From Amycolatopsis pithecellobii (GTDB lineage Bacteria; Actinomycetota; Actinomycetes; Mycobacteriales; Pseudonocardiaceae), in contig NZ_WMBA01000004.1 in the NCBI RefSeq assembly GCF_009707865.1, positions 1 to 64,000 of the forward strand: DNA of 64,000 bases, in the 5' to 3' direction. Under the pieces are notes generated by a model. It ran no database searches. It was not told where the DNA came from and saw only the letters and a list, made by a program, of their open reading frames with translations. Shown here piece by piece: positions 39,241 to 48,690 of this stretch. Each line of letters begins with the position of its first letter. The stretch's first letter is position 1. The translations under genes and the position numbers were made by a program.

Positions 39241-42200
39241 TCAGCCGGGGGGCCGAACGCCAAGCCGGGCAAGGTCGCGGGTACAACGCTCGACCAGGGC
39301 TGTGCTGCCCTGGCTCCGGGCGAGCCCGGCGGCCTCGTGCAGCCGTCGCGCCGCGGTGTCGTGGTCGTCGTGCCCGGCGCGCATCCGGCTCACCTCGGGC
39401 AGCCACCACAGGTCGTCCCGGGCACGCGCGCCGGTCAGCGCCTTGTCCAGGGTCGCGCGTGCCTCGCCGGGCCTGCCGTCCACCAGCTGCAGGTCGGCCA
39501 GCAGTGACAGCCAGTACGGCATCCGGGCGAGCGAGCCCTGCGCTTCGAGGTTCCCGATACCGTTGCGTGCCAGCGCGATGCCCGAGCCGTCCCCGCTGGC
39601 CCAGCCGTCGAGGATGAGGCCCCATTCCGGGTAATAGGCGAAGCCATAACGCTCGCACAGTTCACGCAATTCGGCGACGGTTTCCCGGAGCGCCGGAAGG
39701 TCGTGCCGCAGCTGGCAGGTGATGGCGCCGTAGGCGAGCGCAACGGCCAGGCTGTAGGGATGTTCGATCGTGCGGGCCAGCGTGATGGCCGCCGTGGCGC
39801 TCGACGAGGCGGAGGCGTCGTCGCCGAGCAGCCAGTGGGCGTGGGCGGCCCAAGCGGTGCCGTGCACATCGGGGCGGGTACCGACGGTCAGGAGATGACG
39901 GCTCTGGTTCCGTTCGGCGGCGAGTTCGAAGTGGCGCAATGCCTCCGCCGGTCTGCCGAGGCTGAGCGACGATCCCGCGTAGGCGAAGTGGGCCGAGCCG
40001 CTCGGCTCGGAACCGGGGGTGACCAAAGCCAGCGCCTGGCCGGCGCCACGGTGTGAGTCCGCGATGTGCCCTTGGACGAATCGTGACGTCCACAACCCGA
40101 TCAAGCCGGTGACCAGTGAGTCGTTGCGCCCCAGCGTTTCCGCCAGCTCGACCGTGCGCTCGAGCGTGTGCTGGAGTTCGGTCGAGGCGTAGCCGTAGCG
40201 CGCGTTCAACGGCGCGGCGAGTGCTTCGAGGATCGCCAGCTCCTGCTCGAACGTCTCTCGCCGGTCCGGCTGTGCCCGCACGATCGCCAGGGCCGCCTTG
40301 TTCAGCCGGATGGCTTCGGCGTGCGCGAACGTGTTCGTCGCCAGCTCGGCCGCTCGCCGGTAGTAGGCGACGGCGCGCGCCGGCTGACCGCCATTGGCGT
40401 ACTGCGCCGCGAGCTGGGCCGAAACCGCGTCGGTGTCTTCGTGGAGCAACTCGAGTCCCTGTGCGAGACGGCGGTGCAGCAGCCAGCGCTTCGGCGGACT
40501 TATCTGTGCGTACGCCGTCTCGCGCAGCAGGTCGTGAGAAAAGTCGTAGCCGTCGCGGAACTCGCGGATGATGCGTAGCCGCCACAGCTCGTCGACGGCC
40601 TGAACAACGGTGTCGGCGTCGAGGTCGCTCGCTTCGGTGAGCAGGTCGAGCGTGAAGTCCCGGCCCACGGCGGCCGCGAGCTCGACGACCTGCCGTGCCG
40701 CCGGAGGCGCCTGCGCGAGCCGGTTGCGCAGCGCGCCCCTCAGCTGCCCGGCCGGCGGGCCGGCGCTGCCGAGCTCGACGGAGGTACGCATCGCCTCGAC
40801 GACGTACAGCGGAAAACCACCGGTCGTCGCATGCAGCAGCTTAGTGTCCTCATTGGACAGTCGGCGGCCCGAGATTGCCTCGGCCAGCTGTGCCGTGCCG
40901 TCGATGTCCAGCGGGCTCAGGGAAAGCTCGGTGAGCAGCCCGGTGGCGCGCATCGCGCTGAGCCACTCGCCGAGTTCCGGCTCCGCCTCGGCGTTCTCTG
41001 CGCGGAGCGTGGCGGCCACCAGTACCGGGGCCCTGTGGTCCAGACCAAGGTAAAAGCTGAGGAACGCCAACGTTTCCTGGTCGCACCATTGCAGGTTCTC
41101 CACGATCAGCAGCATCGGTCGGCCGACCCCGATAAGGGCCCGTGCCAGCCCTTCGAAGAAGCGGTGACGCTGCCAGCCGTCAGCCATCGTGGGGGCAGGG
41201 GCATCAGGGTCCCCGTGGCTTGTGCCCGACGGCACCAGTCTCTCGACTTCGCGACGCCAGACCGGGTCGAGCGCGGCCGTGCCCGACTGGACCTTCGGCA
41301 GCCGCAGCCAGTCCGCGACCGGGGCCAGTGGCAGCCGCCCGGAGCTGCCGAAGCACTGGGCGCGCGCCACTACCGCACCGCGCGACCGCGCCGCTCCGGC
41401 GATTTCGGCCAGCAGCCGGGTTTTCCCGACCCCCGCACCACCGTGGACCACGGCGAGTGCCGGCTTGCCCGCCGCCGCGGTCCGCCACAGCCGATGCAGC
41501 CGGTCGAGCTCCCGGGACCGGCCGATCAGGTTCGTCGCGGCCGGCCCGGAACGCCCGGCGGGGACCCTCGGCGCTGCGACCTCGGCCGGGCGGGCGAGCA
41601 GCCGCTCGATCACCTCCCGTGTCTCCCGGTCCGGAGAAACCCCGAGCTCCTGCTCCAGGATCGAGGCACAGTGGTGGTAGGTGCTCACCGCTCCCGCCCG
41701 GTCACCGAGGCGGGCTTGCAGCTCCATCAGCGTCCGGTAGCCGGCCTCCTCCAGCGGCCGGAGGTGGGTGCGGAAGCGGGCGGCGGCCACCGCCCCTGGC
41801 AGGTCGCCCGCCCGGGTGCGCACCGCGCAGAGCAGGTCGCACAGGTCGGCGCACTGTCCTGCGAGCTGAGTCCTGGCCTCGAGCACCCAGTCGTCGTACC
41901 TTCCCGGCAGGAATTCGCCGCGGTACTCGGCGATCGCGTTCGCCGCGTGCCGCTGGATCGCGTCATCGTCCGTTGCCTGTGCAGCGGCTTGCCGTTCCCT
42001 GTCGAAGACGCGCAGGTCCACGCGGCTGGTGCCGGTGTCGTGCCAGCACAAATCCTGGGACGTCACGACCAGCGACGGCTCGTCTCGAAGGATGCCGCGA
42101 AGGTGATGCAGCTCGCGGCGCAGGTTCGTGAGTGCCTGACCATCCCTCGAGTCGGGCCAGAACAGCTGGGAGATGCGCTGCCGTGGCTGCGGGTATCCGG

Positions 42201-42312
42201 CGTGGAGGACGAGAAACGCGATGAGCGCGATCGTCCGTGGCGATCGCGTGACGACACCGCCGGTCGCGTCGTCGACGATCGCCTGCTCTCCCAGCACAGA
42301 GACACGAAGCAT
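39241..42312 (-). CDS. SARP-like regulator with BTAD and AAA ATPase (2)
   Basis: A 1023-residue regulator. The N-terminal winged helix (residues about 1-95, MLRVSVLGEQAIV) is followed by a BTAD domain (about 100-240), an AAA/NTPase module with GGAGVGKT at 291-298 and MLLIVENLQWCD as Walker B, and a long helical C-terminus. No C-terminal LuxR helix-turn-helix is seen, unlike LAL regulators. ATG 42312 follows AGGAGG. The 105-bp repeated element A begins 23 bases upstream. It probably controls the downstream FAD oxidase. Confidence 0.86.
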   Translation of the reverse strand: MLRVSVLGEQAIVDDATGGVVTRSPRTIALIAFLVLHAGYPQPRQRISQLFWPDSRDGQALTNLRRELHHLRGILRDEPSLVVTSQDLCWHDTGTSRVDLRVFDRERQAAAQATDDDAIQRHAANAIAEYRGEFLPGRYDDWVLEARTQLAGQCADLCDLLCAVRTRAGDLPGAVAAARFRTHLRPLEEAGYRTLMELQARLGDRAGAVSTYHHCASILEQELGVSPDRETREVIERLLARPAEVAAPRVPAGRSGPAATNLIGRSRELDRLHRLWRTAAAGKPALAVVHGGAGVGKTRLLAEIAGAARSRGAVVARAQCFGSSGRLPLAPVADWLRLPKVQSGTAALDPVWRREVERLVPSGTSHGDPDAPAPTMADGWQRHRFFEGLARALIGVGRPMLLIVENLQWCDQETLAFLSFYLGLDHRAPVLVAATLRAENAEAEPELGEWLSAMRATGLLTELSLSPLDIDGTAQLAEAISGRRLSNEDTKLLHATTGGFPLYVVEAMRTSVELGSAGPPAGQLRGALRNRLAQAPPAARQVVELAAAVGRDFTLDLLTEASDLDADTVVQAVDELWRLRIIREFRDGYDFSHDLLRETAYAQISPPKRWLLHRRLAQGLELLHEDTDAVSAQLAAQYANGGQPARAVAYYRRAAELATNTFAHAEAIRLNKAALAIVRAQPDRRETFEQELAILEALAAPLNARYGYASTELQHTLERTVELAETLGRNDSLVTGLIGLWTSRFVQGHIADSHRGAGQALALVTPGSEPSGSAHFAYAGSSLSLGRPAEALRHFELAAERNQSRHLLTVGTRPDVHGTAWAAHAHWLLGDDASASSSATAAITLARTIEHPYSLAVALAYGAITCQLRHDLPALRETVAELRELCERYGFAYYPEWGLILDGWASGDGSGIALARNGIGNLEAQGSLARMPYWLSLLADLQLVDGRPGEARATLDKALTGARARDDLWWLPEVSRMRAGHDDHDTAARRLHEAAGLARSQGSTALVERCTRDLARLGVRPPG

Positions 42313-42334
42313 CGCATCGCCTCCTGGCTCGCCA

Positions 42335-42439
42335 GGTTACCGATCCGACCGAAAGTAGGCGGAAACGGTCCGCAGCCCATCTGCTGGTAGATATCCGTTT
42401 CCGCCGTGGCTGCCGTCGGATTGGTAACGAATGGCACAG
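42335..42439. repeat. 105-bp palindrome-ended element, copy A
   Basis: Its ends are GTTACCGATCCGACC and GTCGGATTGGTAAC, complementary over 14 positions with one mismatch, and the right end continues with GAATGGCACAG. Copy B at 46073-46177 matches it in 23 of the first 26 and 33 of the last 39 bases, with identical total length, while the core differs. In copy A the core makes its own hairpin from GGCGGAAACGG and CCGTTTCCGCC. It lies between two minus-strand genes. Confidence 0.85.
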
Positions 42440-42454
42440 CAGTCGCGTATTTCG

Positions 42455-43435
42455 TCAGCGGAGGGCAGCTGGGGACTCGGCGTGCGGGATGAGCAGCCTG
42501 GGGGCGCCGGCGCCGTCCGCGGGGACGGCCCAGATATCGGAGTCGCCGGTGCCGCGGGGGAGTGCGTAACCGATGGTGTCCGGGTCGAGCCAGGCCGGCT
42601 GGTCGTCCACGCTGCGCGTTTCCGCGAGCGGGGTTCTCGCGCCGGTGGCGAAGTCGAGCACGGTCAGCCGCCAGCCTTTCGCCGGATCCTGGTCGATCGC
42701 CGATTTGAAGGCGATGCGTTTGCCGTCCGCGGACAGCGAGGGGCATTCGACGTTCTCCGCGATGGTGCGGACGGTTTTCGCGGCGATGTCGCCTTCGACG
42801 AGATACCGGTGCCCGGCGGTGGACATCGTGGCGTAGAAGTGGTTGTCATCGGCGGCGAACGTGATTCCCCAGAAATTGAGGTCGGCGGCGACGTAGGGGT
42901 GACCGTCGAGCGTGACCGAAAGGAACTCCAGCGAGTCCACTGTGTCCTCGGTTCTGAGGTCGATCAACCCCGCGCGGGTGGAGAACCGCCCGTTGTTGTA
43001 GGAGTCGCCGGCCACGAACACGGTCCAGGCGACCAGTCGTCCGTCCCCGGACACCCGGGTGCGGTTGGGCACGCCGACGAGCGGAATCTCCTTGCCCACG
43101 TTGAGATCGGCGTCCAGGATGGCGATCTGGAAGGTGGCGAGCGCGCCGTCCTGGCGCAGGCAGGCGCCGGTGCCGGCCGCGGCGTAGACCCGCAGGCAGC
43201 TCAGCGCCGACACCGAACGAGGCCCGGCCGGATCGTCGTCGGCGACCGTCGCCAGCCGTCCGTCGCTGTCCGGTGCGGTGCTGCGGAACAAGATCCGCGG
43301 TGCGGGCGCGAGACTCAGCCGGCCGGCCGCGGTCACCGTGGGGTGTTCGCGGGCCATGGTGAACGCGCCGTAGCCGACCGCGATCGCGGTCAGCAGCACG
43401 GCTCCGAGGAGCGCGAACAGGACTCGCCGCGTCAT
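42455..43435 (-). CDS. Membrane-anchored TolB-like beta-propeller protein
   Basis: A 326-residue protein with one N-terminal transmembrane or uncleaved signal segment (RRVLFALLGAVLLTAIAVGYGAF) and an extracytoplasmic WD40/TolB-like propeller: repeated strand pairs such as NRTRVSGDGRLVAWTVF, CPSLSADGKRIAFKSA and WLDPDTIGYALPRGTGDSDIWAV. Such proteins act in binding or assembly rather than catalysis. ATG 43435 overlaps the stop of the MFS gene (ATGA), so it is the partner of that transporter. Confidence 0.8.
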   Translation of the reverse strand: MTRRVLFALLGAVLLTAIAVGYGAFTMAREHPTVTAAGRLSLAPAPRILFRSTAPDSDGRLATVADDDPAGPRSVSALSCLRVYAAAGTGACLRQDGALATFQIAILDADLNVGKEIPLVGVPNRTRVSGDGRLVAWTVFVAGDSYNNGRFSTRAGLIDLRTEDTVDSLEFLSVTLDGHPYVAADLNFWGITFAADDNHFYATMSTAGHRYLVEGDIAAKTVRTIAENVECPSLSADGKRIAFKSAIDQDPAKGWRLTVLDFATGARTPLAETRSVDDQPAWLDPDTIGYALPRGTGDSDIWAVPADGAGAPRLLIPHAESPAALR

Positions 43436-44697
43436 GCGTGCTGCTCCTCGGTGGCCGGGATACCGCGTAGCAGCAGTCCCACGGCGAGCACGGCGACCGC
43501 GACCAGGACGGCGGCGATCCGGCTCGCGCTTGCCGGTCCCCATGCGGTCCAGGCGAGTCCGAAAAGGACAGAGGAAAGCAGATAGCACAACGCCTGTCCA
43601 CTTTGGATCAGTGCGATTCCGGTGGTGCGCAGGGCTTTGGGCAGCACCGGACCGGCCAGTGCCATCAGCACGCCATCGGTGGCCGCATAGAACAGGCCGT
43701 AGAGCCCGAGCGCCACCACCAGGAGCGGCCAGCCGCCGAGGGGCCCGAACAGCAGCAGGTAGACGAGCACGAGCGCGGTGTAGCCGCCGAGCACCACCTT
43801 GAGCCGGCCGATCTTGTCCGCCAGCATGCCCAGCGGGGTGGCCAGCAGCAGATACGACAGGTTCGTGCCGACCGCGAGCAGCGGAAACCAGCCCACGCCG
43901 AGGTGTTCGTGTTGCTGCAGCAGGAGGTAGACGAAACCGTCGCCGATGGTCACCATCCCGGCCAGGCCCGCGGCCAGCACCAGCCGCCGCACCGGCGCCA
44001 GCCGGATCAGGTCACCGAGCGCCGAGAAGGACACCGTGCCTTTCGGTGGTTGGTCGCCGCGACGGTCGCGGACGAACAGCACCAGCACCAGGACACCGAA
44101 GGCGGCGATGCAGAAGCTGGCGACGAACACCGTGTCGTAGGCCTGTGCGGTGGCGGCCAGGACGCCGAGCGCGACGAGTGGTCCGGCGAAGGCACCGGCG
44201 GTGTCCATCATCCGGTGAATGCCGAACGCGCGGCCGTACAGGTGTGGCGGGGTGGAGAGGGTGATCAGCGCGTCGCGTGGCGCGGTGCGCAGGCCCTTGC
44301 CGGTGCGGTCGACGGCGATCACCGCGCCGATCGCGCCGACGGCGTTACCCGCGGCCGGCAGCCCGAGCTTTGCCAGCGCGGACAATCCGTAGCCAAGCCC
44401 GGCGATCAGCTTGCGGTGACGCGTCACGTCGGCGAGGTAGCCACCGGCCAGGCGCAGCAACGCCGTCGCGCCGGTGTAGGTGCCGTCGACCATGCCGTAG
44501 ACAGCGGGGCTCAGGTGCAGTCCGAGTACCAGGTACACCGGCAACACCGCGGTCACCATCTCCGACGAGACGTCGGTGATCAGGCTGACCGCACCGAGCG
44601 CGAACACGTTGCCGCTCACCGAGAACAGCGCGCGTTTGCGGGATGGCTTCGTGCCGTCGTCGCCGGTATGTGGATGGTCTATTGTGGACAGATACAC
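43432..44697 (-). CDS. MFS transporter
   Basis: About 421 residues with roughly 12 hydrophobic segments. DRTGKGLRTAPRDALI in the first cytoplasmic-loop region and GMLADKIGRLKVV in the middle are major-facilitator signatures; the former is typical of exporter-like MFS proteins. GTG 44697 is chosen because GGAGG lies eight bases upstream; ATG 44712 is possible. Longer starts up to 44766 would run through the terminator hairpin of the upstream gene and are rejected. Transport substrate unknown; it is coupled to the downstream propeller protein. Confidence 0.84.
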   Translation of the reverse strand: MYLSTIDHPHTGDDGTKPSRKRALFSVSGNVFALGAVSLITDVSSEMVTAVLPVYLVLGLHLSPAVYGMVDGTYTGATALLRLAGGYLADVTRHRKLIAGLGYGLSALAKLGLPAAGNAVGAIGAVIAVDRTGKGLRTAPRDALITLSTPPHLYGRAFGIHRMMDTAGAFAGPLVALGVLAATAQAYDTVFVASFCIAAFGVLVLVLFVRDRRGDQPPKGTVSFSALGDLIRLAPVRRLVLAAGLAGMVTIGDGFVYLLLQQHEHLGVGWFPLLAVGTNLSYLLLATPLGMLADKIGRLKVVLGGYTALVLVYLLLFGPLGGWPLLVVALGLYGLFYAATDGVLMALAGPVLPKALRTTGIALIQSGQALCYLLSSVLFGLAWTAWGPASASRIAAVLVAVAVLAVGLLLRGIPATEEQHA

Positions 44698-44726
44698 GAG
44701 CGCCACCTCCATGGGGCCGGCAGGAA

Positions 44727-44758
44727 CCCGCTCGGGGACACGTGTGCCCCCGAGCGGG
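44727..44758 (-). terminator. Terminator hairpin after secreted phosphoesterase gene
   Basis: Perfect 11-bp stem (CCCGCTCGGGG and complement) with a ten-base loop, 23 bases past the stop of the gene ending at 44781. It separates that gene from the MFS operon. Confidence 0.78.
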
Positions 44759-44780
44759 GTGATCATTTCCGGCTACCGGG

Positions 44781-45632
44781 TCAGTTCCAGACGTTGGTGA
44801 TCGCTGACGCCGAGTTCAGATGCGAGAGGCCGTAGGCGCTTTCGATGGTGCTCAGCACGTTGTAGTGGTTGATCTGGTTGGTGAAGGTGCCGACCTGGGT
44901 GTGCGCGCCGACGAACGCGGTGAAGATGTGGTTCGACGAACCGCCGTTGTCCTCGTCGAAGGTGACGATGAGCAGGCTGTTGTGCGTTTTCGCCCACTGC
45001 GCATAGGCGTCCAGGTTGTTCTTCAGCCAGCTGTCACCCGTGCTGATCGAGCAGTCGTGCATGTCGTTGCACAGGTTCGGGTCGAGGTAGGAGACCGTCG
45101 GCAGGCTCGCGTAGTTGGCCGAGTTCGGGAAATCGGTGTACATCAGGTTGCTGGCGGCCGGGACGTTGCTGAAGAACGGTGCGGCGTTGTGCTTGCGCGC
45201 GTATTGGCCGCTGCTGCACCCGGTGTAGCCGTCCGACGGCATGCTCTCCGAGTAGCTCTTGAACGTCTTGCCCGAGGTGAGCAGCTGGTTGGCGATGTTG
45301 TTGCCGGTGAAGGTGTGCGGGCAGCTGTCGTCGGTGATGCCCTGGGTCGATCCGGAGAAGATGGCCAGATAGTTCGGTTCGCTGGGGTGCGTGACCGCGT
45401 AGGACTGGGTGAACTTCGCGCCCTGCGCGGCGAGGCTGTTGAAGTAGGGGGCGCTGGAGCTGCCGTTGATCTGTGAGTAGGCGTGGTTCTCGAACATCAC
45501 CTGCACGATGTGGTCGAACACCGGCACACTCGACGCCGCCTGCGCGGTGGACGAGGTGACGACCACGGCCGTCACCGAACCGATCAGTGCCGCTGCCGCC
45601 GCGACCGCGGCCGCAATGCGCTTCCGTAACAC
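44781..45632 (-). CDS. Secreted phosphoesterase (acid phosphatase/phospholipase C type)
   Basis: A 283-residue exported member of the same family as the lipoprotein at 35165: DHIVQVMFENHAYSQI, YAVTHPSEPNYLAIFSGSTQGITDDSCPH, MPSDGYTGCSSGQY and HNSLLIVTFDEDNGG. The Sec signal peptide ends near STAQAAS (about residue 33); there is no lipobox, so it is released or wall-associated. GTG 45632 is preceded by AGGAGG. A 12-bp-stem hairpin sits in its leader, just before the ribosome site, and a terminator follows. Confidence 0.87.
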   Translation of the reverse strand: MLRKRIAAAVAAAAALIGSVTAVVVTSSTAQAASSVPVFDHIVQVMFENHAYSQINGSSSAPYFNSLAAQGAKFTQSYAVTHPSEPNYLAIFSGSTQGITDDSCPHTFTGNNIANQLLTSGKTFKSYSESMPSDGYTGCSSGQYARKHNAAPFFSNVPAASNLMYTDFPNSANYASLPTVSYLDPNLCNDMHDCSISTGDSWLKNNLDAYAQWAKTHNSLLIVTFDEDNGGSSNHIFTAFVGAHTQVGTFTNQINHYNVLSTIESAYGLSHLNSASAITNVWN

Positions 45633-45651
45633 GAATCCTCCTGAAAGTGGA

Positions 45652-45685
45652 TGACCGGCCCTGACCGCACTGCCAGGGCCGGTCA
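45652..45685 (-). promoter_or_regulatory. Hairpin in the 5' leader of the secreted phosphoesterase
   Basis: A 12-bp perfect stem (TGACCGGCCCTG and complement) with a ten-base loop, ending 20 bases before the GTG and immediately upstream of AGGAGG. It could be an attenuator, an RNA stabiliser or a repressor site. Confidence 0.6.
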
Positions 45686-46029
45686 ATCCTGAGAGGCATC
45701 CGCGGCATTGATCCCAATTTCCCGGGGACACCAGGTGTGCGCGAAGTAAACAAACCAAACGCGAAATCCATTCTCTGGGACAACCGTGAATCGGTTGCCG
45801 CGCAAGGAGCATCCGGGCGAAATTTCCCGCGGATAATGACCGAATTGTCCGTAGTCAGCGGACGGCAAATTCGGCGGAAATCGGAAATCCTTTTTCTGGA
45901 ATAGGGATTGTTAATGGTCAATTAACCCCGCGTTCGGGTTCCGGGGCCGCACCGGTCATGCACCCGGCGCAGCGTGTGCACCCGTTGTCCCCAGCGGCTT
46001 CCGGCCGCGCGTGTGAGGAGGTTGGATTG
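45686..46029. other. AT-richer gene-free region with divergent promoters
   Basis: This stretch is noticeably less GC-rich than its surroundings and has no convincing reading frame. It must carry the promoters of the secreted phosphoesterase (leftward) and of the alkaline-phosphatase-superfamily gene (rightward). No further palindrome of note was found. Confidence 0.5.
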
Positions 46030-47754
46030 GTGCCGAGACGATGGAGGCGGGCCGCGGCGGTGGGTGCGGCCGGGTTACTAATCCGACCAAAAGTAGGCAG
46101 ACCCCGAGCAGCACGTAACCGTTGTCACGCAATCCGGATAGCCGTGACTGTGGTCGGATTGGTAACGAACGGCACAGTACTCGGGTGTGCCGGTGCGGTG
46201 GCGACGGCGCAGGCGCAGCCGCGTAGCGAGCATGTGCTGCTGCTGAGTGTGGATGGTCTGCACCAATCCGATCTCGCATGGTATACGGCGAAACATCCGG
46301 GTTCGGCGCTGGCTTCCTTGGTGCGTCAGGGAACCGAGTACACGCACGCGCAGACCCCGGTGCCGTCGGACTCGTTCCCGGGCATGGTGGCGCAGGTGAC
46401 CGGCGGCAACCCGGCCACCACCGGCGTGTACTACGACGACGCCTACAACGCCGGCCTGCTGCCCGCGGGCACCACGTCGTGCACCGGTCAGGCCCTGGGC
46501 GCCGAGGTGGACTACACCGAGGATCTCGACCGGAACAAGGACAGTATCGATGCGGGGCAAGGCCTGCCCGGTCTCCCCGCCGGTGTGCTGGCCATGACCG
46601 GAACCCCGCGTACCTTGCTCAACCCGGCGGCGCTGCCGGTCGATCCGGAGACGTGCAAGCCCGTTTATCCCGGCCAGTACCTGAAGGTCAACACGGTGTT
46701 CGAGGTCGCGAAGCAGGCAGGCCGGCGCACCGCGTGGTCGGACAAGCACGCGGCCTACGACATCCTGAACGGCCCGTCGGGCGCCGGAATCGACGACCTG
46801 TTCACCCCGGAGATCAACAGTAAGGCCCCGGCGGGCGGTGACTGGACCACCGACAACGCCGACACCCGCACCTACGACGGCTACAAGGTCCGGGCCGTGC
46901 TCAACGAGATCGACGGTTACGACCACAGTCGCACCACCAGAACCGGCGTCCCGGCGGTGTTCGGGATGAACTTCCAGACGGTGTCCACGGCGCAGAAACT
47001 GCCCTCCTCGGACGGCAAGCAGGGCGGGTACCTCGTCGACGGCACCCCCGGCCCGCTGCTGGCGGACGCGCTGGCCTGGGTCGACCAGCAGGTCGCGGCG
47101 ATCACCGCGGAGCTGCGCACGCAGGGCCAGGCCGCGGACACCACGATCATCCTGTCCGCCAAGCACGGCCAGTCCCCGATCCAGCCCGCCGCACTCACCC
47201 GGATCGACGACGGTCCGCTGCTGGCCGGGCTCAACTCCGCCTGGCGGGCCGCACATCCGGGCGCGGGCGACCTGGTGGCGCACGCGGTCGACGACGACGT
47301 GATGTTGTTGTGGCTGACCGACCGTTCGCCGGCGGCGACCGAGTTCGCCAAGAGCTACCTGCTCGCCCAGCCGGGAACCGGCAACGGCATCGACGGCAAG
47401 CCGAAACCGTTCGTCCACTCCGGACTCCAGACCGTCTATGCCGGGGCAGCCGCGGCGCAGTACTTCGGCGCGGCGGCGGGCGATGTGCGCGTGCCCGACC
47501 TGTTCGGCGTCGCCGATGTCGGCGTGGTCTATACCGGTGGCCACAAGAAGATCGCCGAACACGGCGGCGCCGCCCCGGACGATCGTGATGTGCCGCTCGT
47601 GGTCAGCGGTCCGCGGATCAGGCACGAAACCGTGACCGGCGGGGTGGAGACCACGCAGATCGCCCCGACGATCCTGACCCTGCTGGGCCTGGATCCGGTT
47701 GCCCTCCAAGCGGTCCGTGTCGAGCACACCCCGGCCCTGCCCGGCACATACTGA
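46030..47754 (+). CDS. Exported alkaline phosphatase superfamily protein (nucleotide pyrophosphatase-like)
   Basis: A 574-residue hydrolase of the phosphodiesterase/alkaline phosphatase superfamily. HVLLLSVDGLHQSDL gives the first metal aspartate, PVPSDSFPGMVAQVTGG the nucleophile region (Ser where relatives often have Thr), and TTIILSAKHGQSPI and DVPLVVSGPRI further metal sites. GTG 46030 is favoured by GAGGAGG eight bases upstream. The N-terminus then reads through the 105-bp element B in frame, giving an extended signal sequence whose hydrophobic core is IAVTVVGLVTNGTVLGCAG and whose cleavage is likely near TAQAQP. Substrate unknown; extracellular nucleotide or phosphodiester cleavage is likely. 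Confidence 0.85.
   Translation: MPRRWRRAAAVGAAGLLIRPKVGRPRAARNRCHAIRIAVTVVGLVTNGTVLGCAGAVATAQAQPRSEHVLLLSVDGLHQSDLAWYTAKHPGSALASLVRQGTEYTHAQTPVPSDSFPGMVAQVTGGNPATTGVYYDDAYNAGLLPAGTTSCTGQALGAEVDYTEDLDRNKDSIDAGQGLPGLPAGVLAMTGTPRTLLNPAALPVDPETCKPVYPGQYLKVNTVFEVAKQAGRRTAWSDKHAAYDILNGPSGAGIDDLFTPEINSKAPAGGDWTTDNADTRTYDGYKVRAVLNEIDGYDHSRTTRTGVPAVFGMNFQTVSTAQKLPSSDGKQGGYLVDGTPGPLLADALAWVDQQVAAITAELRTQGQAADTTIILSAKHGQSPIQPAALTRIDDGPLLAGLNSAWRAAHPGAGDLVAHAVDDDVMLLWLTDRSPAATEFAKSYLLAQPGTGNGIDGKPKPFVHSGLQTVYAGAAAAQYFGAAAGDVRVPDLFGVADVGVVYTGGHKKIAEHGGAAPDDRDVPLVVSGPRIRHETVTGGVETTQIAPTILTLLGLDPVALQAVRVEHTPALPGTY
46073..46177. repeat. 105-bp palindrome-ended element, copy B, inside a signal-peptide coding region
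   Basis: Ends are GTTACTAATCCGACC and GGTCGGATTGGTAAC, followed by GAACGGCACAG. It has the same length and end sequences as copy A at 42335-42439 but a different core, with its own short hairpin (GTCACG/CGTGAC). It is open in the reading frame of the exported hydrolase and encodes about 35 residues of its N-terminus. Confidence 0.82.
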
Positions 47755-47765
47755 ACCGGCGTACG

Positions 47766-47798
47766 GGCCCCGCCGGAGTGGCTTCCGGCGGGGCCTTT
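47766..47798 (+). terminator. Rho-independent terminator after exported hydrolase
   Basis: Perfect 12-bp stem (GGCCCCGCCGGA and complement), six-base loop, followed by TTT. Confidence 0.88.
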
Positions 47799-47901
47799 CC
47801 CGGTTCACTGTTTCCGGTTTTTACCGTCCGTTGGTTTGGGACTATTCACACCAATTCGGGGCGCCGGAAAGCCGTCCATTCGTTGTGTCAGACTGTTCCG
47901 C

Positions 47902-48690
47902 ATGGTCAACAACCTTGCCGGAGCGATCGCGCGACGGCCGATCCGGGTTCCGGAGATCACCGCGTATTTCTGGATTCTCAAAGGTCTTTCGACCGCATTG
48001 GGCGAATCTGCGTCGGACTATCTCGTGCGGGTGCTGACGCCGGTTCCCGCAGTCGTGCTCGATTGTCTCGCTTTCGTAATTGCGCTGGCCGTGCAATTCA
48101 CCCGGCGCCGGTATGTAACGTGGACGTACTGGTTCGCGGTCGTGATGGTCGGCGTTTTCGGAACCATTGCCGCTGACGTTCTGCATGTCGGATTAGGGGT
48201 GCCTTATCTGGTATCGACCGTGCTGTGCGGCGCCCTGCTTGCCGCGGTGTATCTCCTGTGGTGGCGGCGCGAGGGGACGCTCTCGATTCACGCCGTCGAT
48301 TCCGCCCGGCGAGAGGCGTTCTACTGGGCCGCGGTCGTGGCGACCTTCGCGCTGGGCACCTCGGCCGGCGACCTTGCGGCCACCACCTTCGGTCTGGGCT
48401 ATTTCGGTTCGATCGTGGTGTTCGCGATCGTGATCCTCATTCCGGCGATGGGGTACCGGTGGTTGCGCTGGAATGGCGTGTTCTCATTTTGGTTCGCCTA
48501 TGTGGTGACCCGCCCGCTGGGCGCCTCGATCGCCGACTGGCTTGGCAAGCCCGTGGCCGAGGGTGGCGCCGGCGTGGGTGTAGAACTCGTGAGCCTCGTA
48601 CTCGCGGTGGCGATCGTGGCCCTCGTTGGCGTTGTGTCCGTCAGGGGCCGCCGCCGGGAATCCGCATCGGCTGACCTGAGTGGACACTGA
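47902..48690 (+). CDS. Polytopic membrane protein, COG4705-like
   Basis: A 262-residue integral membrane protein with about eight hydrophobic segments. The N-terminal VPEITAYFWILKGLSTALGESASDYLVRVL matches the uncharacterised COG4705 group, and the later EAFYWAAVVATFALGTSAGDLAATTFGLGY repeats the same pattern (F/YW...GT/STA..G(E/D)), so the protein appears to be an internal duplication. ATG 47902 begins directly with MVNNLAGAIARRP. Function unknown; the conserved acidic residues inside membrane helices would suit ion or metal transport. Confidence 0.8.
   Translation: MVNNLAGAIARRPIRVPEITAYFWILKGLSTALGESASDYLVRVLTPVPAVVLDCLAFVIALAVQFTRRRYVTWTYWFAVVMVGVFGTIAADVLHVGLGVPYLVSTVLCGALLAAVYLLWWRREGTLSIHAVDSARREAFYWAAVVATFALGTSAGDLAATTFGLGYFGSIVVFAIVILIPAMGYRWLRWNGVFSFWFAYVVTRPLGASIADWLGKPVAEGGAGVGVELVSLVLAVAIVALVGVVSVRGRRRESASADLSGH

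Follow-up and report, generated by a model that had tools for sequence, protein, structure and literature searches.

Within the 64,000-nucleotide stretch of Amycolatopsis pithecellobii DNA analysed here (the window), a gene for a phosphodiesterase-like protein carries a 102-bp unit that is probably a non-autonomous mobile DNA hairpin, an element that inserts 3' of a triple of bases and that landed in the signal-peptide part of the gene. The unit belongs to a large mobile hairpin family in Amycolatopsis-like actinomycetes, akin to the MITEs and REPINs. The original prediction of a mobile repeat at this position, taken as a whole, is partly supported. The features concerned, all on the + strand, are as follows.

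46030..47754, + strand: host gene, type I phosphodiesterase/nucleotide pyrophosphatase-like protein, predicted to be exported (PF01663, E=2e-17)
46075..46077, + strand: left (target) triple TTA, read in frame as Leu codon 16; three genus orthologues have CTG
46075..46088, + strand: left hairpin arm including the left triple, TTACTAATCCGACC (consensus fold)
46078..46179, + strand: inserted, probably mobile hairpin unit, 102 bp, 34 codons, LIRPKVGRPRAARNRCHAIRIAVTVVGLVTNGTV (gap against three orthologues; covariance-model match at 46075-46179, 122.6 bits)
46152..46165, + strand: right hairpin arm, GGTCGGATTGGTAA (consensus fold; single-strand DNA fold z)
46163..46165, + strand: internal triple TAA, the complement of the left triple (triple comparison across 155 copies)
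46166..46179, + strand: conserved 14-nt 3' tail, CGAACGGCACAGTA (frequencies by column across 78 copies; the last part recurs in copies of other genera)
42337..42441, + strand: copy A, TTA at 42337-42339 followed by a unit at 42340-42441 with a different middle (98.2 bits, alignment)

Empty sites and anatomy of the element

The borders of the unit are set by genes that lack it. Three orthologues of the host gene (G012, G002 and G003) were found among the 19 genomes of the genus examined, and all three have GGN-CTG-CTC without interruption, against GGG-TTA-(102 bp)-CTC in the window, a net gap of 102 bp and hence a gain of 34 in-frame residues. The G012 locus is identical over 3,501 bases to a record of Amycolatopsis sp. 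GM8 (L031), and the G002 locus over 3,474 bases to a record of A. acididurans (L032). Neither the 102-bp element nor its peptide occurs at any of 80 orthologue loci of the host gene. The borders first proposed, 46073-46177, thus give way to 46078-46179, and the accompanying count of about 35 residues added after 14 codons becomes 34 residues, with 15 codons before the left triple; the in-frame read-through itself stands. The empty sites in three of three orthologues, the absence from 80 loci and the multi-copy family together uphold the claim of a mobile repeat read in frame within a signal-peptide region, and contradict the possibility, raised with that claim, that orthologues might all keep these N-terminal residues with no empty site.

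The start of the host gene at GTG 46030, with GAGGAGG just upstream, agrees with the prediction: start and ribosome site are conserved in the three genus orthologues (L377, L378 and L379), and their GTG with an AGGAGG-type site speaks against a true start downstream at GTG 46144. In actinomycetes the TTA codon is rare and is read by the bldA tRNA; given a TTA where three orthologues have CTG, expression of the host gene may have become bldA-dependent.

The unit folds as a single long imperfect hairpin, with a consensus of 19 pairs, 10 of which show at least one double change. When folded as single-stranded DNA, the window copy has a z of -3.38 on the + strand and -2.08 on the - strand, and copy A has values of -5.34 and -3.80, respectively. 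These two copies are 85% alike in stretches of 33 and 46 nt at their ends and unlike in the middle, and the middles of the element are of three kinds despite a near-constant length, which among 78 good copies from several genomes is 105 positions in 49, 104 in 13 and 106 in 9. A palindrome-ended element that shares its length and ends with copy A is therefore real, chance being excluded by the size of the family, and copy A, first placed at 42335, is corrected to 42337-42441 with its different middle. The description of the ends as terminal inverted repeats holds for the left arm; the right arm stops 14 nt short of the end, and the tail CGAACGGCACAGTA runs on from it to 46179. In the window copy an open frame runs through the element on each strand. 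Two minus-strand ORFs flank copy A, which stands 24 bp upstream of a BTAD/AAA regulator gene (PF03704; start at 42312) and could possibly affect its expression.

Family size and distribution

A blastn search of the own genome, with 40 of 111 candidates scored, gave at least 40 matches at E<1e-10, the window copy included, and the other copies are 75 to 95% identical to it. A covariance model (R1) built from 57 sequences gave at least 98 matches there at E<=0.01 with 150 of 14,529 candidates scored; three of these 98 are the opposite strand of another match, leaving at least 95 distinct places, 89 of which measure 100-109 bp and 62 exactly 105. Within the genus, blastn matches at E<=0.001 were obtained in 7 of the 19 genomes, the own genome among them. 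Copies are plentiful in G000, G004, G012 and G154. Across the bacterial family at least 9 of 150 genomes, again including the own, were matched by the model when 26 candidates were scored per genome. The clear matches are in G000 (the own genome), G154 and G101, at E 4.6e-11 or better; copies are present in at least one other genus. Six further genomes of the family gave weak model matches (E 6e-5 to 9e-4), which, to judge from a common stem foot and tail end, look like relatives. Related hairpins of 94-103 bp with stem mismatches and the same tail end were seen in other genera of the family (L179-L183 and L185). Plasmids, phages and one viral-contig pattern scan gave no match to the element, in collections from which the records nearest to the own genome may be missing.

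Some copies are arranged in tandem arrays with a period of 102 (L201, L223 and L152). The array at L201:1466-1774 comprises three units and about 13 bp of a fourth, and that at L223:1581-1786 two units and about 11 bp of a third; these partial end units look as though produced by repeated rounds of a circle. At L162:1036-1309 (G004) two near-alike copies lie 170 bp apart; their right flanks are the same and their left flanks similar, and the pair is best described as a local duplication that took in the unit.

The target triple and its complement

After removal of copies with look-alike flanks, 155 remained for analysis of the triple on the left, which is TTA in 100. Ten sites could be compared with an empty site in a relative. 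At four of them the present triple is already there: TTA at the L111 site in G002 (TTG in G012), TTA at the L208 site in G012 (among nine near relatives, TTG in seven and TTT in one), TTA at the L016 site in G004, and GTA at the L169 site in G000, the last with a one-base gap. At the other six the relatives have a different triple, namely CTG in three of three for the TTA of the window; TCN in 14 of 14 alignments for the TGA of L137, where the net gain is 102 without duplication; TTG in 7 and TTC in 3 of 17 relatives for the TTA of L205:2596; GTG in four of six for the CTA of L205:1339; and TCA in a relative for the TTA of L214, while at L204 a TTAC present in both copies of a target repeat is absent from relatives. 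Insertion 3' of a kept triple without target duplication is seen at L111, L208 and L016; the window, L137 and L205 also show a net gain of 102 without duplication, but the triple of their relatives differs, and at L204 the target is duplicated. Either the ancestor had another triple at the six differing sites, or the triple changed with the insertion.

The left triple is matched within the element itself. Left and internal triples are exactly complementary in 116 of the 155 copies. Among the 100 copies with TTA on the left the internal triple is TAA in 83 and another triple in 17, and 33 of the 55 copies with some other left triple are exactly complementary, against 4.9 expected and a maximum of 16 in 10,000 permutations; 12 of these 55 retain an internal TAA. 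The base before the left triple is G in 79 of 155 copies, and only 7 of the other 76 are matched, which means that the matching largely ends at three bases.

The internal triple appears to track the site more than the lineage. When the three nearest copies were taken for each of the 60 copies with an internal triple other than TAA, 95 of the 180 neighbour slots held TAA, near the background of 95 in 155, and 15 held the same variant triple, where 7.2 were expected (p 0.035, a weak clustering). A control column inside the element, by comparison, follows lineage strongly (341 of 465, 262.7 expected). Moreover, copies with GTA/TAC, TTG/CAA, TGA/TCA, GGG/CCC and TCG/CGA have TTA/TAA copies among their nearest relatives, with cores 83-94% alike.

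The simplest reading of these observations is that, site by site, the two triples were made to match, either during insertion or afterwards. In one form of this, which we propose tentatively, the sequence of the internal triple would be changed to complement that of the landing site, or vice versa, either at insertion or by a three-bp repair just after it; if true, the family would transpose as hairpins with no known Y1 enzyme, and pairing with the target would both guide and edit DNA. The main alternative is that the internal triple is a heritable guide that chooses insertion sites. Variant triples do cluster weakly, and the copies nearest by core seldom have the same one. Third comes repair of the hairpin arms by template switching, under which the matching would have no need to end at three bases. 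The complementary triples make target choice testable from sequence alone.

Proposed mechanism and the missing enzyme

In the mechanism we propose, the 102-nt unit would fold into a long hairpin that ends in a 14-nt 3' tail. It would insert immediately 3' of a short triple, in most cases TTA or a near match to it and usually without target duplication, and the left and internal triples would pair at the foot of the hairpin. A single-stranded intermediate is thereby implied, as is a role for the triple pairing. The profile of the Y1 transposases (PF01797), the only HUH family covered, gave 0 matches in the draft of the own genome (144 contigs); it matched in 5 of 14 control genomes and, within the genus, in one of 19 (G013), itself without a match to the element. 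Presence of Y1_Tnp does not track the element, and it was rejected as the mobiliser, as was RVT_1, which 8 of 19 genus genomes have and the copy-rich G000 and G004 lack. No recurrent neighbour gene emerged from clustering of the ORFs at 162 copy-bearing loci, where the largest cluster had four members. Half-length matches at L029, L135, L160 and L161 were considered as an autonomous partner and rejected, having no paired far end in the stretches examined. The mobiliser may have been lost, may lie in a gap of the draft, or may come from a family outside those searched; the missing Y1 match points to a mobilising enzyme beyond those found here.

It is unlikely that the element is an ordinary MITE of a DDE transposase, for example of the IS630 type, in which TTA...GTA would mark a 100-bp element flanked by a duplicated TA target. 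TTA...GTA is indeed the commonest end pair (69 of 162 aligned copies), and a net gain of 102 also equals 100 + 2. Left and right ends of the aligned copies nevertheless vary independently (TGA...GTA, CTA...GCA, GGG...GTA), on which ground a TA target duplication was rejected. The ends are also not symmetric, the right arm lying 14 nt from the end, and a TA duplication does not predict the pairing of left and internal triples. Neither matching terminal repeats nor a target duplication of fixed length was found, the net gain being 102 at five of six in-gene sites.

The view that these are structured RNAs or regulatory elements, maintained by selection and spread by duplication rather than by transposition, draws on the conserved internal motifs AGYAGGC and GCCGTGRCTG together with the covariation of the stem, on an excess of G-U type over A-C type cells (about 51 to 25) as RNA on the + strand would give, and on a strict scan in which no more than 5 of 162 copies had a single continuous coding frame on both sides. 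It is improbable given the patchy occurrence (blastn matches in 7 of 19 genus genomes, counting the own) and the clean gain of the unit at unrelated loci, gene interiors among them; a search of Rfam with window positions 40000-48000 gave no match at E<=5.

Insertions inside genes and the export signal

Mobility of a DNA hairpin, the reading preferred here, is well illustrated by six in-gene insertions that could be compared with empty sites, all of them in frame and open, with a net gain of 102 bp in five and 111 in one. Apart from the window copy they lie in genes whose names were read from the translated sequence and not from a domain search: an hrpA-like gene (net +102, the unit being absent in 18 of 18 relatives), the amidohydrolase-like L208, the MMPL-like L205 and the thiolase-like L111 of G004 (each net 102 against nearest relatives), and the hydantoinase B-like L204 (net +111, the target being repeated over 11-12 bp). 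Of 162 copies a strict scan placed 4 in one continuous coding frame, two of them open, one interrupted by a stop (L025) and one by both a stop and a frame shift (L124). A second scan with other settings placed 5 of the 162 there, of which four are open and L025 again has a stop; both scans miss the window copy and L111, whose left parts are short. A permissive list was left out of the counts; further copies (L192, L197, L215, L171 and L242) appear to be read through. The stop brought by L025:1501-1605, and the stop and frame shift brought by L124:1485-1578, have likely disrupted their genes.

In the phosphodiesterase-like gene, a 34-codon unit without a stop in the frame used left the gene open, and the element-encoded IAVTVVGLV now precedes the old cleavage region of the protein, where it may form part of a working export signal. 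The element had been credited with supplying the hydrophobic core of this signal, and the hydropathy maximum (15-residue window) of the window protein does fall in the mostly element-encoded IAVTVVGLVTNGTVL, at 1.90, which is consistent with that claim. The GM8 orthologue has its maximum of 1.99 in AVAGAVGLLGCTAAV, and so the ancestral signal peptide already had a hydrophobic core of its own, which the insertion split.

That the 34 residues are a selected, domesticated portion of the export signal is unlikely. The frame is open through the insert and the hydropathy maximum falls inside it, both as domestication would have it, but the residues are present in one genome only, so that conservation is not measurable, and the other in-gene copies encode different peptides in unrelated proteins, so that no benefit has to be assumed for a copy to persist in frame. 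To explain such persistence it would be enough that the length is divisible by three, that the frame is open and that frame-breaking copies are selected against. A clean 34-codon unit able to enter genes without breaking them is all the same a route to new protein segments.

Comparison with known systems

A 102-bp hairpin family is not described among the literature matches listed, a set largely without subscription papers. The GTAG and CGTC superfamilies of REP sequences are palindromic repeats of 20-40 bp with an unpaired tag at one end (PMC3733652); the Amycolatopsis element is likewise a palindrome with an unpaired end, but its unit measures 102 bp, and the main text of that paper makes no mention of actinobacteria, Streptomyces, Amycolatopsis or Pseudonocardia.

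Insertion in frame into coding genes is shared with the Rickettsia palindromic elements, which are about 150 bp long and of which nearly half of the 44 first reported were in-frame gene fusions; a 2024 review of MITEs treats them as the outstanding in-frame case (PMC10969869). In Amycolatopsis six such insertions have empty sites, with L025 and L124 as counter-examples. The two systems, compared by description only, differ in that the present family occurs in another phylum and that a small part of its copies lies in genes.

In the REPINs, a 5' tail is suggested to rebuild the hairpin by pairing with a complementary target (PMC3116915). The present family resembles them in being miniature and of high copy number, in having as its unit one hairpin formed from inverted repeats, and in its tandem clusters. 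It differs from them in its 14-nt 3' tail, its trinucleotide site and its in-frame copies inside genes, and the own genome has no PF01797 match that would represent a RAYT (Y1) gene.

IS608, of the IS200/IS605 family, inserts precisely 3' of a short target, TTAC, which stays in the left flank and is found by base pairing (PMC5934647). At some sites (L111, L208 and L016) the Amycolatopsis element similarly sits 3' of a triple already present in a relative, and its target pairs with DNA of the element (33 of 55 against 4.9 expected). It differs in that the PF01797 search found no Y1 (HUH) transposase in genome or element, in that the 102-bp unit has neither tnpA nor tnpB and one hairpin only, and in that its pairing triple is located on the 3' side of the hairpin, rather than in a guide 5' of it, and appears to track the site more than the lineage.
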